Positions 56,809 through 63,806 of a stretch of 64,000 bases of DNA are shown here, in pieces. The position numbers and the translations under genes were made by a program. The notes under the pieces were generated by a model. That model ran no database searches. It was not told the origin of the DNA and saw only the letters and a program-made list of their open reading frames with translations. Numbering within the stretch: the stretch's first letter is position 1; every line of letters begins with the position of its first letter. Origin of the DNA: Maricaulis salignorans (GTDB lineage Bacteria; Pseudomonadota; Alphaproteobacteria; Caulobacterales; Aquidulcibacteraceae); the NCBI GenBank assembly GCA_945891505.1, contig CAMDDL010000009.1:1-64000 (forward strand), read 5' to 3'.

Positions 56809-57126
56809 ATGTCAAAATTCGAGACTTATGAAGCCAAGGATGGTTTTCGTTGGCGCTTTAAAGCTACCAACGGTAATATCCTAGCCGATTCAAGCGAAGG
56901 CTATTCCTCAAAGGCGTCTCGTGACAACGGCATTGAACTCTGCCGCAAGGGTGAACTGAAGTATGAGGTCTTTGAATCCAAGGGCCAATATTACTGGCGT
57001 GCCAAGTCAAAGAACGGCAACATCATCGCCGATGGCAATGAAGGCTATAAGGCCAAAGCGAGCTGCGAGAACGGCATGGAATCCTTCCAGCGCCAAGCGC
57101 CAGACGCTCCAGTCGTCGAGGTCTAA
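56809..57126 (+). CDS. YegP-like protein with two DUF1508 repeats
   Basis: 105-residue small soluble protein made of two tandem copies of the DUF1508 motif: FETYEAKDGFRWRFKATNGN with ILADSSEGYSSKASRDNGIE, and YEVFESKGQYYWRAKSKNGN with IIADGNEGYKAKASCENGME. The repeats pair to form the intertwined beta-sheet fold of E. coli YegP. A strong AGGGAGGAG site precedes ATG 56809 by 8 nt, suggesting high expression. The only plus-strand gene in the 49-64 kb stretch. Function unknown; often stress- or growth-phase-linked in other bacteria. Confidence 0.9.
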   Translation: MSKFETYEAKDGFRWRFKATNGNILADSSEGYSSKASRDNGIELCRKGELKYEVFESKGQYYWRAKSKNGNIIADGNEGYKAKASCENGMESFQRQAPDAPVVEV

Positions 57127-57142
57127 ATTAAAGCTGAAATGA

Positions 57143-57167
57143 GTAAGGCAGGCCCGGCCTGCCTTAC
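57143..57167. terminator. Bidirectional hairpin terminator overlapping the pdhC stop
   Basis: GTAAGGCAGGCC and GGCCTGCCTTAC form 12-bp arms around one central base in the gap between the convergent DUF1508 and pdhC genes. The pdhC stop codon (57164-57166) lies inside the stem. No long T-run is present. Confidence 0.6.
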
Positions 57168-58438
57168 AGCATCAGGCCGATGGGCTCTTCAATCAGGCTC
57201 TTGAACGCGGCTAGCCAAGCAGAGCCAATCGCCCCGTCAACCACCCGGTGATCGCAAGTCAGCGTGACGCTCATCACGGTCGCAATAGCCAGCGCGCCAT
57301 TTTTGACGACAGGACGCTGTTCCCCGGCCCCGACGGACAAGATGCAGCCTTGAGGCTCATTGATAATGCTCATGAAGCTCTTGATCCCCATCATCCCCAA
57401 ATTGGAGATGGAGAAGGTGCCGCCGGCATAATCTTCGGGCATGAGTTTCCGGTTACGCGCCTTATCGGCCAAGCTCTTCATTTCGTCCGAGATTGCGGCA
57501 AGGCCCTTGGTCTCGGCTTTGCGGATCACTGGCGTGATTAAGCCACCATCAATCGCGACGGCCACAGCAATATCTGCATGATGATGGATCAAAATCCCAT
57601 CGGGTGTATAGGAAGCGTTCGCCGCTGGCACGCGCTTACACGCAAGTGCAGCCGCCTTAATCACCAAATCATTGACCGACACTTTGGCATTTTGCGCGGC
57701 CCCAACTTGATTGAGCTGCTTGCGCAATTCCAACAATTTGTCGATTTCCAGATCAATGTTGAGCGGGAAATGCGGCACATCGCGGAAGCTTTCGGTCATG
57801 CGGCGCGCAATCGTCCGACGCATGCCGTCCAAGAGCACAATGTCATAGGTACCGTCGGCGTATGGCAAGGGGCTGGGCGCACGCGGTGCCGGCGCCGCTG
57901 TCGGTGCAGCGGTTGGCGATGCAAGCGCTGCAACGGCTGTTGGCTGAGGCGCTTGACCTCGCGCAGCTTCGACATCGGCCTTAACGATCCGGCCATGCGG
58001 GCCTGTGCCGGTAACTTGGGCAAGGTTGATCCCGGCGGCTTCGGCGATGCGCTTGGCCAACGGTGACGCCATGATACGGCTACCATCTGTTGCGGCGGCC
58101 GGGGCGGTAGCCACTGGAGCCGCTGCTAGAGCAGGCGCAGCCGCAGGGGCTACAGAGGCGGGTGTTGGTGCGGTAGGTGCCTTTGAAGGGGCATCGCCCT
58201 CGCCTTCAATGCGCGCAATCACAGCATTGACCTTCACGCCTTGGGTACCTTCGGCGACCAAAATCTCAAGGACCTTGCCCTCATCGACCGCTTCGACTTC
58301 CATTGTGGCTTTATCGGTTTCGATTTCGCACATGATGTCGCCAGACTTCAGCACGTCGCCAACTTTGATATGCCACTTCGCCAGCACGCCCTCTTCCATC
58401 GTCGGGGACAAAGCGGGCATCAAAATGTCGATAGCCAT
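57164..58438 (-). CDS. pdhC: Pyruvate dehydrogenase E2, dihydrolipoamide acetyltransferase
   Basis: 424 residues from ATG 58438 ([17 protein letters not shown]), with GAGGA 9 nt upstream inside and after the pdhB stop. One lipoyl domain with Lys in [12 protein letters not shown]; an Ala/Pro linker (about 80-125); the peripheral-subunit-binding domain [17 protein letters not shown]; and the catalytic trimer domain with [20 protein letters not shown] and the active-site His in [12 protein letters not shown]. It transfers acetyl from lipoamide to CoA and forms the complex core. Last gene of the pdh run, 11 nt from pdhB. Confidence 0.96.
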
Positions 58439-58449
58439 GGGCAAATTCC

Positions 58450-59802
58450 TCAGCGATTGGTGACGGCGCGGGCGGCCGCGACGATATCTGCCGCATTCGG
58501 CAAGGATAGTTTTTCAAGATTGGCCGCATAAGGCAGCGGCGTATCTTTTTGGTGGACCCGCATCGGTGGCGCATCAAGCCAATCAAAAGCCCCGTCGATG
58601 ACGCAGGCGATGACTTCAGCACCAACGCCCATCGGGCCCCAACCTTCTTCCGCCGTCACAAGGCGATTGGTCTTCTTGACCGAGGCGATGATGGTTTCGG
58701 TATCCAGCGGGCGCAAGGTACGCAGGTCGATCACTTCGGCGGAAATGCCCAAAGTGGCCAATTCTTCTGCCGCTTGCAGGGCAAAGCCTACCATGCGCGA
58801 ATGCGCTGTAATGGTGAGGTCTGTACCTTCCCGACGCACTTTGGCTTTGCCAATTGGCACAACCCAGTCATCACCCTCTGGCACCTCATATTCAATGCCA
58901 TACAGAAGCTCATGTTCAAGAAAGACCACGGGATTGGGGTCGCGAATGGCAGCCTTAAGAAGCCCTTTGGCGTCGGCGGCATCATAGGGCGCGATCACTT
59001 TCAGGCCGGGTACGTTGCTATACCAGCTGGAATAATCATGGCTGTGCTGCGCACCCACGCGCGAGGCCGCGCCATTTGGGCCCCGGAAGACGATGGGGGC
59101 ACTAATTTGCCCGCCCGACATATAATGCACTTTAGCGGCGGAATTGATAATGTGGTCAATGGCTTGCATCGCAAAGTTCATGGTCATGAACTCCACAATT
59201 GGCTTCAAACCTGCCATTGCTGCGCCCACACCCATGCCGGCAAAACCATGCTCAGTAATCGGCGTATCGATCACACGACGGTCACCAAATTCTTCCAGAA
59301 GCCCACGACTAACTTTATAGGCGCCTTGGTATTGACCGACTTCTTCCCCCATAAGGAAAACGTCTGGGTCGCGGCGCATTTCTTCGGCCATTGCGTCACG
59401 AAGCGCATCGCGCAAAGTCACTTTGACCATTGGCGTGCCAGGTGGAATTTCAGGATCGGCCAAGGCAACAGGTGCGCTCGCTGCAACCGGCGCTAGTGCA
59501 GCCGCAGGCGCAGGCGCTGCTGCCACCGGCGCAGGTGCATGAGGCGGCGTTACCGCTTCTTCATCGCCAGAGATGCGCGCGATAGGTGTGTTGACTTTTA
59601 CACCCTGACTGCCAGCGGCCACCAAAAGGGCTTCAACGACGCCCTCGTCGATGGTTTCAACTTCCATCGTTGCCTTATCGGTTTCAATCTCGGCAATAAC
59701 GTCACCTGCTTTGACCGTGTCACCGACCTGCACCAGCCATTTGGCCAAAGTGCCTTCCTCCATGGTTGGAGAGAGTGCGGGCATGAGGATTTCAATCGAC
59801 AA
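58450..59802 (-). CDS. pdhB: Pyruvate dehydrogenase E1 beta with N-terminal lipoyl domain
   Basis: 450 residues from TTG 59802 ([17 protein letters not shown]). GGAG lies 6 nt before this TTG, while the ATG at 59841 sits in a hairpin loop and has a poorly placed site; I prefer TTG. The lipoyl domain occupies about 1-78 with Lys in [13 protein letters not shown] linker follows, then E1-beta: [53 protein letters not shown] and [16 protein letters not shown]. The fused lipoyl domain is known from alphaproteobacterial and Zymomonas enzymes. The TPP-dependent heterotetramer forms with PdhA. Confidence 0.95.
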
Positions 59803-59831
59803 GGCAGGCTCCGTATTGGTTAGATTAGGTT

Positions 59832-59852
59832 GGGCCTGCATAAAGCAGGCCC
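59832..59852. repeat. Perfect hairpin upstream of pdhB
   Basis: GGGCCTGC and GCAGGCCC form an 8-bp stem with a 5-nt loop, 30 nt upstream of the pdhB TTG start. The only in-frame ATG for a longer pdhB lies in the loop. There is no T-run on the minus strand, so it may be an mRNA processing or weak termination structure between the preceding gene and pdhB. Confidence 0.5.
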
Positions 59853-59922
59853 GTCCTCTTCATCGTGCGTAGCAACGGCGACCGAGCACCGCTGAACTTA
59901 AAAACCCAAAGCGGGTCGCGTT

Positions 59923-60909
59923 CTATTTTTTCTTTTTGGCAGCAGGCGCCTTTACAGGCGGTGCTTTCTTGGCTGGCGCACGACCCATTTCTGGCGGTGC
60001 CAACAAGCCACCTGGCTTTTGGTGCTCGTTCAATTGGAAGCGAACAGCCGCATATTCTTTTTCGAAAGCTGTTTTGCCGGGCTGGAACACAGCATTGACG
60101 CCATCTTGGACAATTTTCTGGATGACTTCATAATCTTCTTGGCCATTTTCCTGACGGCAGCTGCGTACTTGATTGATGCGGTCTGGCATCGCACGCAATT
60201 CATCCAACAGCGCATTAAAGCCATTGCGGGTGTTCTCATTGACAAAAGATTCGGCTGTAACGGTACCCAGCGCAGCAGGACATGCGGACGTGTATTGAGG
60301 CTGAGCCGCAGAACCGCTCAGACTGCCAACAAACCGACCTTTTGGTTCGGTCCAAGCAGACAAGGCTGCTTGTGGGGCTTCCACAACCGCCGCCTCACCC
60401 TTTTTCTTCGGGGCTTTCGGCGCAGGCAATTTGCTAATCCGCTCAATGTTACCCGTTGCAGCAGCGTTCATGCCGTTAAAGGCTTTGGCTTCTTCATTGG
60501 CTGCGGCGGACAAATAGTCGCCGAGATTGATGCGGACGACGTCGATATCGCGCCGCGCATTTTCAACCAAGCAGTCTTCATAAGCGTCCCACTTTTCGCG
60601 AACAGCTTCAAAGCGACGCTTTTCACCTTCGACATAGGTCCGGCTGGTGCTTTCTTGAATGGCGGCCGCATCCATATCAAACTTAAAGGCTGGGCAGCTT
60701 GGGGTATAGGTTAGGCTATCAACCTTGCCACCGCTGAAGTTACCAGCATGCACTGGAATGTTGCTGGCGGCAGGTGCAGGTGCAGGTACAGGTGCTGCAG
60801 CTGGCGTTGCTGATTGTGCAAACGCAGGTACGCCGCCAAATTGGGCACCAATTGCAGCCACAAGGCCGATTGCAGCGGTTGCGATGAGAGTAGTCTTCAT
60901 GGCTTTCAT
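59923..60909 (-). CDS. Secreted protein with two tandem Cys-paired modules, unknown function
   Basis: 328 residues from ATG 60909, which has GGGAG 8 nt upstream. The signal peptide is MKAMKTTLIATAAIGLVAAI through AFAQ, with cleavage near residue 31. An Ala/Pro linker precedes module 1 (about 66-135), which has Cys72 (YTPSCPAF) and Cys113 (YEDCLVEN). Module 2 (about 204-273) has Cys210 (YTSACPAA) and Cys251 (VRSCRQEN). Both pairs are exactly 41 residues apart, pointing to an internal duplication with one disulfide each. The C-terminus is Lys/Ala/Pro-rich and ends in KKKK. It lies between pdhA (stop 60944) and pdhB on the same strand, an unusual place for an exported protein. I recognise no family. 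Confidence 0.82.
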   Translation of the reverse strand: MKAMKTTLIATAAIGLVAAIGAQFGGVPAFAQSATPAAAPVPAPAPAASNIPVHAGNFSGGKVDSLTYTPSCPAFKFDMDAAAIQESTSRTYVEGEKRRFEAVREKWDAYEDCLVENARRDIDVVRINLGDYLSAAANEEAKAFNGMNAAATGNIERISKLPAPKAPKKKGEAAVVEAPQAALSAWTEPKGRFVGSLSGSAAQPQYTSACPAALGTVTAESFVNENTRNGFNALLDELRAMPDRINQVRSCRQENGQEDYEVIQKIVQDGVNAVFQPGKTAFEKEYAAVRFQLNEHQKPGGLLAPPEMGRAPAKKAPPVKAPAAKKKK

Positions 60910-60943
60910 CTCGTTTTCTCCCACAGGTGGCCCGCCTTTTGGC

Positions 60944-61957
60944 TCAGGCCTCAACATAAATGTGACGCATCAACTCTGAAGGGTCGGGCTCCGGGCTTGT
61001 TTGAGCGAAATCGGCAGCATCGGCTACTATTTCTTTCACGTCCCGGTCGATTGTCTTCAGGTCTTCTTCAGTAAACAGCCCATTCTCCAGACCATAATGG
61101 CGCATGTGCTCAATGGGGTCGCGGGTATCGCGCACTTGCTTTGGCTCATCTTTGGGGCGATATTTAGCCGGGTCGGACATGGAATGGCCACGATAGCGAT
61201 AGGTCTTCATTTCCAGAAGGAACGGACCTTTCCCAGACCGGGCATGCTCTAACGCGCGTTCAGCCGCCTTGCGCACGGCTATAACGTCCATGCCGTCCAC
61301 TTCTTCGCCGACGATTTCGAAGCTGATGCCGCGCTTGAACAATTCGGTCTCTGCCGAGGCCCGCGCAACGCTGGTGCCCATGGCATATTGGTTGTTCTCG
61401 ATCACATAGACAACTGGCAAACGCCATAGGCTTGCCATGTTGAAGCTTTCATAGACTTGGCCTTGGTTGGCAGCTCCATCACCAAAATAAGCGACCGAAA
61501 CTTGCTCATTGCCGCGATATCGATTGGCGAGCGCCAGACCGGTACCCAAAGCAACCTGTGCACCCACGATCCCATGGCCGCCATAGAAATTGGCCTCTTT
61601 CGAGAACATATGCATCGAGCCGCCCTTGCCGCGCGATGAACCGCCAATACGCCCGGTCAGTTCTGCCATAATCTCGCGCGGACTCATGCCGCAGGCCAAC
61701 ATGTGACCATGGTCGCGATAGCCGGTGATCACTTGATCGCCCGCCTTTTGCGCAGCTTGCATGCCCACCACGACAGCTTCTTGGCCAATATAGAGATGGC
61801 AGAAACCAGCAATCAAACCCATGCCATAAAGCTGGCCAGCACGCTCTTCAAAGCGGCGGATCAAGAGCATATCGCGATAATAGGCGAGTGCCTCGTCACG
61901 ATTGTCTAAGTTTGATGGAGAAACAGCAGCGGACCCGGATGATTTCTTAGCAGCCAT
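60944..61957 (-). CDS. pdhA: Pyruvate dehydrogenase E1 alpha
   Basis: 337 residues from ATG 61957 (MAAKKSSGSAAVSPSNL); a TTG four codons upstream is in frame but less likely. TPP-dependent decarboxylating subunit. The TPP/Mg motif is GDGAANQGQVYESFNMASLW, with YGMGLIAGFCHLYIGQEAVV, GGSMHMFSKEANFYGGHGIVGAQ and the phosphorylation-loop equivalent KTYRYRGHSMSDPAKYRPKD. First gene of the pdhA...pdhB-pdhC run. E1-alpha and E1-beta are separated by the secreted-protein gene instead of being adjacent. Confidence 0.97.
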   Translation of the reverse strand: MAAKKSSGSAAVSPSNLDNRDEALAYYRDMLLIRRFEERAGQLYGMGLIAGFCHLYIGQEAVVVGMQAAQKAGDQVITGYRDHGHMLACGMSPREIMAELTGRIGGSSRGKGGSMHMFSKEANFYGGHGIVGAQVALGTGLALANRYRGNEQVSVAYFGDGAANQGQVYESFNMASLWRLPVVYVIENNQYAMGTSVARASAETELFKRGISFEIVGEEVDGMDVIAVRKAAERALEHARSGKGPFLLEMKTYRYRGHSMSDPAKYRPKDEPKQVRDTRDPIEHMRHYGLENGLFTEEDLKTIDRDVKEIVADAADFAQTSPEPDPSELMRHIYVEA

Positions 61958-62024
61958 CGATGCGTACAACCCTTCTCAGAAGACATTATCCATAGGCAGA
62001 AGCGGGCCAGACGTCCAGTTGCGT

Positions 62025-62369
62025 TCACGGATTGGGGGTCTGCGAAGATGCAGAAGATCCCGCAACGGCTGCTGTTTTTGGCAATGGCATCGCAATATCG
62101 TTCGGCCCTGCCAGCCCCAATTGGGACATGGCACGTTCTTCCACATAGTCCGAATCAACTTCGCCAGCCTTGTAACGGGCCAGCTTGCGCTCCAACTCTA
62201 TCCGCTGCTTTACCAAGCCGTCGCGCTCAGCCATCAGTCTGTCGGCGGCCTGCACATAGGAGTGCCACGACAATACGCCTTGTTGGCCGACAAAAAAGTG
62301 CACAGCAAAATACACCAACACCCCTGAGAACAGGAAGGTTGAGATACGTATGCCCTTTAAGAATGCCAT
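62025..62369 (-). CDS. ftsB: FtsB/DivIC-like septum formation protein
   Basis: 114-residue bitopic membrane protein. Transmembrane helix at about 9-28 (ISTFLFSGVLVYFAVHFFVG), then a coiled coil (DRLMAERDGLVKQRIELERK) and the family YVEERAMSQLGLAGPNDI stretch. It is expected to bind FtsL/FtsQ in the divisome. Location between eno and pdhA on the same strand is the usual alphaproteobacterial position, as in Caulobacter. The Ala/Ser-rich C-terminal tail is variable. Confidence 0.88.
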   Translation of the reverse strand: MAFLKGIRISTFLFSGVLVYFAVHFFVGQQGVLSWHSYVQAADRLMAERDGLVKQRIELERKLARYKAGEVDSDYVEERAMSQLGLAGPNDIAMPLPKTAAVAGSSASSQTPNP

Positions 62370-62456
62370 ACCGACAATGCCTTTTGGTGGCGTGGCCGCT
62401 GTTTGCTAAGCCCACGCCATCTTGTGCCCAAACTTGGTAAACCAAGTGTTAGCAAA

Positions 62457-63806
<1,350 letters not shown>

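Follow-up and report, generated by a model that had tools for sequence, protein, structure and literature searches.

The window analysed here, 64,000 nucleotides of a Maricaulis salignorans contig, carries on its minus strand a cluster of pdh genes in which a gene for a 328-residue protein is placed between pdhA and pdhB. A preliminary description made from the sequence had put this gene on the same strand as its neighbours and tightly packed with them, and open reading frames (ORFs) together with Pfam domains confirm the arrangement: 34 nt separate it from the upstream pdhA. The genes of the locus and the parts of the protein are as follows.

57164-58444, minus strand: E2 dihydrolipoamide acetyltransferase, downstream of pdhB (ORF; Pfam)
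58450-59841, minus strand: pdhB, E1 beta with lipoyl and transketolase domains (ORF; Pfam)
59923-60909, minus strand: coding sequence of the 328-residue two-module Cys-pair protein, predicted to be exported (ORF and translation; ATG at 60909)
60944-61969, minus strand: pdhA, E1 alpha (ORF; Pfam E1_dh, E 8.9e-105)
62025-62369, minus strand: DivIC/FtsB-type septum formation initiator, upstream of pdhA
60817-60909, minus strand: predicted N-terminal signal peptide, residues 1-31, Sec-like, ending in AFA (judged by eye)
60757-60816, minus strand: Ala/Pro-rich spacer, residues 32-51 (sequence)
60430-60756, minus strand: module 1, residues 52-160, predicted beta-hairpin, short helix and long helix (sequence, profiles, AlphaFold)
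60694-60696 and 60571-60573, minus strand: C72 and C113 of module 1 (translation)
60352-60429, minus strand: linker, residues 161-186, predicted to be partly disordered (pLDDT<50 at model residues 118-132)
59995-60351, minus strand: module 2, residues 187-305, with a layout like that of module 1 (sequence, profiles, AlphaFold)
60280-60282 and 60157-60159, minus strand: C210 and C251 of module 2 (translation)
59926-59994, minus strand: Lys-rich C-terminal tail, residues 306-328, net charge +7 (sequence)

An enolase gene is also present further upstream of pdhA in the window. A small protein of two DUF1508 repeats (56809-57126, plus strand) adjoins the E2 gene.

The protein contains exactly four Cys residues (72, 113, 210 and 251). 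The YTxxCPA motif said to be shared by its two modules is present in the translation, as YTPSCPA from residue 68 and as YTSACPA from residue 206, and the spacing is 41 both in C72/C113 and in C210/C251. Export, which had also been proposed, is predicted from the Sec-like signal, and A31 at the signal end is invariant in 15 orthologues. The C-terminal tail is Lys- or Arg-rich in all 15 of them.

The 328-residue reading frame is a real gene under strong selection, because dN/dS against genus relatives amounts to 0.07-0.10 (0.069-0.100 in seven of eight pairs, Nei-Gojobori method, eight genus relatives; in the eighth pair dS is saturated). Its two halves are homologous. When module profiles built from the 15 orthologues were compared by hhalign, module 1 and module 2 matched over 87 columns with a probability of 98.4% and E 5.2e-15, against at most 8.6% for 50 column-shuffled profiles and 0.6% for a reversed profile, so that the proposed duplication of a Cys-pair module has withstood the comparison of its halves. 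All four Cys, as well as Y68, Y206, N117, D121 and D259, are invariant in the 15 orthologues, down to 30% identity. C113, N117 and D121 of module 1 thus recur in 15/15 sequences; in module 2 this is true of C251 and D259, and N255 is present in 13/15, with Gln in the other two.

The window protein has no match in Pfam (no family at E<=10), NCBIfam, PHROGs, PADLOC or PDB sequences, the module profile has none among PDB sequences, and tblastn against plasmid and phage records gave none either; there is therefore no sign of a mobile element or of a known defence gene. Literature searches, covering titles and abstract openings, returned no title about this protein. The LprI/DUF1311 family, considered as a lead, is unsupported by the Pfam scan. 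A second match in the own genome (E 0.057), limited to residues 8-70 (the signal, the Ala/Pro stretch and the first part of module 1), was discarded.

Of 61 genomes, the window's own among them, 15 encode the two-module protein: nine belong to genus g1, five to g13 and one to g6. None of these carriers has the gene elsewhere, since all 15 copies stand between pdhA and pdhB (in some, pdhB is truncated by the contig or locus end). A profile of these 15 rows detected no further two-module protein across 299 genomes of the order and gave one weak match (E 0.0012), an exported protein of 116 residues that has a single Cys pair. Two more single-module exported proteins (L035 and L063) came to light when the sequence between pdhA and pdhB was read in 40 other genomes. 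Profile A2, composed of modules from 9 of the 15 two-module proteins and of three singles, has matches in 35 of the 398 genomes searched in the order; three of the 35 supplied the singles and two-module genomes the other rows, and genomes absent from the profile reach E 2.6e-12. The gene lies beside pdhB in 29 of the 35 carriers, across families f1, f4 and f5. This number comprises 23 genomes with a copy between pdhA and pdhB (15 two-module and 8 single-module copies) and six of family f5 with a single-module copy about 0.15-1.3 kb upstream of pdhB and on its strand. The other six carriers, all of genus g24 in family f4, have the gene away from pdh, five of them near gyrB. On the opposite strand are the g24 relatives near gyrB in 5/6 carriers (L124, L130, L131, L132 and L032), and in some g17 genomes a further gene stands beside the pdhA-pdhB copy.

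With the broader profile A3, matches were obtained in 16 of the 385 genomes searched in the class, 15 of these outside the window's own, with E down to 1.5e-13; at none of those 15 loci do pdhA or pdhB occur within about 1.5 kb. Within the family of the window, A3 matches 17/60 genomes. Two distant relatives (L115 and L117) have a dihydroorotase-like gene on one side and, on the other, a TPR/PQQ-repeat (BamB-like) gene pair, as named by eye.

The single-module exported relatives share the landmarks G, [YW]..C, Y..C and D, and a putative N-terminal signal peptide is plain by eye in them, as it is in the window protein. Further likeness is seen in L035, L063, L032, L104 and L107: the signal ends in AG or similar, Y or W stands a few residues before the first Cys, the helix bearing the second Cys is Y-x2-C-like and has D eight residues further along, and the C-terminus is long and helical. 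Unlike the window protein, these relatives have one module and about 100-180 residues, usually with Pro soon after the first Cys, and the Lys tail is often absent. Their Cys spacing within the order is 30, 32, 36, 37, 40 or 43, so the exact distance of 41 residues emphasized before applies to both window modules but not to the single-module relatives. None of 13 single-module relatives exceeds the Pfam cut-off and none of 10 the NCBIfam cut-off. These profile matches place the module in a larger, uncatalogued family of alphaproteobacterial proteins that are small, exported and marked by a clear signature; the window protein, which matches the module profile of the family and carries two modules instead of one, is its duplicated variant. 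The initial remark that no family was recognised holds for the catalogues listed above and has to be amended in view of this wider family.

We suggest that the two-module form represents a clean case of the transition from a single module to a two-module protein. A tree built from 30 modules and 10 singles gathers the module 1s into one group and the module 2s into another in 90% of bootstraps, with the singles apart from both in 100%; the tree program warns of long branches, so the exact root is unsure. The PdhA tree (51 rows, without 7 loci that lacked a usable PdhA) unites the 15 carriers of the two-module protein in one clade with support 100/99. The simplest reading of the two trees would be a single tandem duplication in the common ancestor of the three-genus clade.

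The fold was predicted by AlphaFold for residues 52-307 from a shallow alignment of 9 sequences, in which the relatives are 69-93% identical to the window protein. The best model has pLDDT 88.6 and pTM 0.77 (pLDDT of the other models 87.3, 86.4, 77.5 and 41.9), and each module is laid out in it as a pair of short strands followed by one short helix and one of about 65 residues. Module 1 alone, with an equally shallow alignment, reaches pLDDT 76.8 and pTM 0.40. Because the two-module model is more confident than that of module 1 alone, we infer a pseudo-dimer in which each module stabilises the other. A search of PDB with the full model by Foldseek gave nothing at E<=0.001. Long paired helices as in the model also occur in PDB entries for V-ATPase stalk subunits and for further proteins of long antiparallel helices, with no significant match: the best Foldseek E is 0.22, and VIA Z stays at or below 7.6, which common helical arrangements also reach. 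The model of module 1 has zero Foldseek matches at E<=10, which says little because its pTM is 0.40. Chains of tripartite alpha-pore-forming toxins are among the weak Foldseek rows, and the protein could accordingly be imagined as a long-helix pore former of the kind of their subunits. We find this hardly credible: the toxin rows all have E >0.5 and probability <=0.12 and are mixed with V-ATPase stalks and flagellins, the VIA scores do not rise above common helical arrangements, and no library searched contains a sequence match.

The model of the protein that we propose is the following. In each module, a short beta-hairpin, directly followed by the first Cys, would precede the helix of about 65 residues, which bears the second Cys in the context C-x3-N/Q-x3-D. 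A disulfide between the two Cys would most likely fasten the hairpin region onto the helix like a staple. Such disulfides are feasible, since DsbB and three DsbA-like genes over the cut-off are present in the host genome. The same four invariant Cys might also be read as a metal site or a thiol redox centre. We consider this very improbable, as there is no CxxC, the modules exist singly with just one pair in their core, and the host has the DsbA/DsbB-type genes for oxidation. In the disulfide-stapled protein, the two modules would probably pack as a built-in pseudo-dimer, and single-module relatives would probably self-associate. The Lys-rich tail could tether the protein near an anionic polymer or component of the envelope. 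Its function would then be that of a periplasmic helical scaffold or adaptor, a role read from the shape because the searches found no characterised member, and its position in the pdh operon that of a co-expressed passenger, not of a part of the enzyme complex. To this whole picture, a stapled, tail-held, pseudo-dimeric scaffold or adaptor travelling with the pdh operon, we give an even chance.

The passenger status is suggested by the content of the pdhA-pdhB slot in the order. It had been assumed that pdhA and pdhB are normally adjacent, which fails here: in 40 pdhB loci from other genomes, the gap between them is below 100 bp in 8, 174-180 bp in 2 and 294-1164 bp in 24 (24 of the 34 loci with both genes in view), and in the other 6, all of f5, pdhA was not found in the approximately 3.5 kb fetched upstream of pdhB. 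The f5 loci concerned are L056, L060, L064, L068, L070 and L072. The large gaps are often filled by unrelated genes. MAPEG (PF01124) is present in 15 of the 24, DUF3291 (PF11695) in 3, DUF5076 (PF16826) in 3, two of these alongside MAPEG, and VOC/glyoxalase in 1; single-module proteins occupy 2, and 2 contain none of these genes. The MAPEG, DUF3291, DUF5076 and VOC occupants take the same position in relatives but have unrelated sequences and are not signal-peptide Cys-pair proteins. Diverged copies in other pdh slots were searched for with two profiles, both already including L035 and L063, in 1401 ORFs of the 40 loci; only these two genes matched well, the next E being 0.36. As the slot is so often occupied, occupancy alone implies no role in pyruvate metabolism, and the 15 class-level carriers without a pdh neighbour likewise speak for a passenger. 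The position beside pdh would probably reflect co-expression inherited from a common ancestor.

Against a pure passenger, linkage to pdh in 29 of 35 carriers and three families exceeds what a passenger needs. A functional tie to PDH has to be weighed here, in which pdh transcription sets the dose of the protein in the envelope and envelope growth or division tracks pyruvate flux; such a link, if functional, would tie the cell envelope to central carbon metabolism. Besides the placement of those 29 carriers, it is favoured by the six f5 genomes, which keep the gene near pdhB though pdhA is absent from the fetched stretch, and by the DivIC gene preceding pdhA in the window. We nevertheless regard this tie as unlikely. 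Profile A2 detects no copy in 363 of the 398 genomes searched in the order, the slot is also taken by MAPEG, DUF3291 and other genes, the six f4 genomes have the gene away from pdh, 0/15 class-level carriers have pdh genes in the fetched flanks, and a common inherited position would produce the same pattern of placement. Quite improbable, in our opinion, is the boldest form of the idea, a new periplasmic family that became a covalent pseudo-dimer by doubling in one lineage, with its supply fixed to pdh expression so as to match an envelope process to acetyl-CoA production.

Finally, the N-terminus could remain uncleaved and the protein could be a cytosolic or inner-membrane factor of PDH assembly or regulation, as might be expected from neighbours that are the same in 15/15 copies and from the short distance to pdhA. 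We give this very little credence in view of the typical Sec-like signal with its invariant A31, the Cys pairs conserved in every orthologue and the exported single-module relatives that occur away from pdh. Moreover, Pfam reveals none of the domains of the PDH complex (lipoyl, E3-binding, acyltransferase, TPP) in the window protein at E<=10.

Returning to the co-expressed passenger, its co-transcription with the pdh genes is likely. In four g13 genomes the stop of the gene is 0-15 nt before pdhB, which suggests co-transcription there. In the genus of the window, about 80-110 nt lie between the gene and pdhB and fold into three predicted hairpins (59815-59922, minus strand):

59903-59917, minus strand: terminator-like hairpin, CCC/GGG stem followed by a T run, right after the stop codon
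59873-59894, minus strand: second predicted RNA hairpin, which holds the sole 2 pairs changed on both sides
59832-59852, minus strand: third predicted RNA hairpin, overlapping the called pdhB start at 59841

The three hairpins are conserved in 7 genus sequences, but their structure is suggestive only, because no more than 2 of the 28 predicted pairs have both partners changed and covariation contributes little (term -0.42). Rfam has no match over 57000-62500, and a terminator scan of the region found 9 candidates, no richer than shuffled sequences (mean 7.0, sd 3.4). The terminator-like hairpin is conserved in 7/7 genus sequences aligned, an alignment that left out two more distant genus members. 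As the third hairpin overlaps the called start of pdhB, the true start may be slightly downstream.
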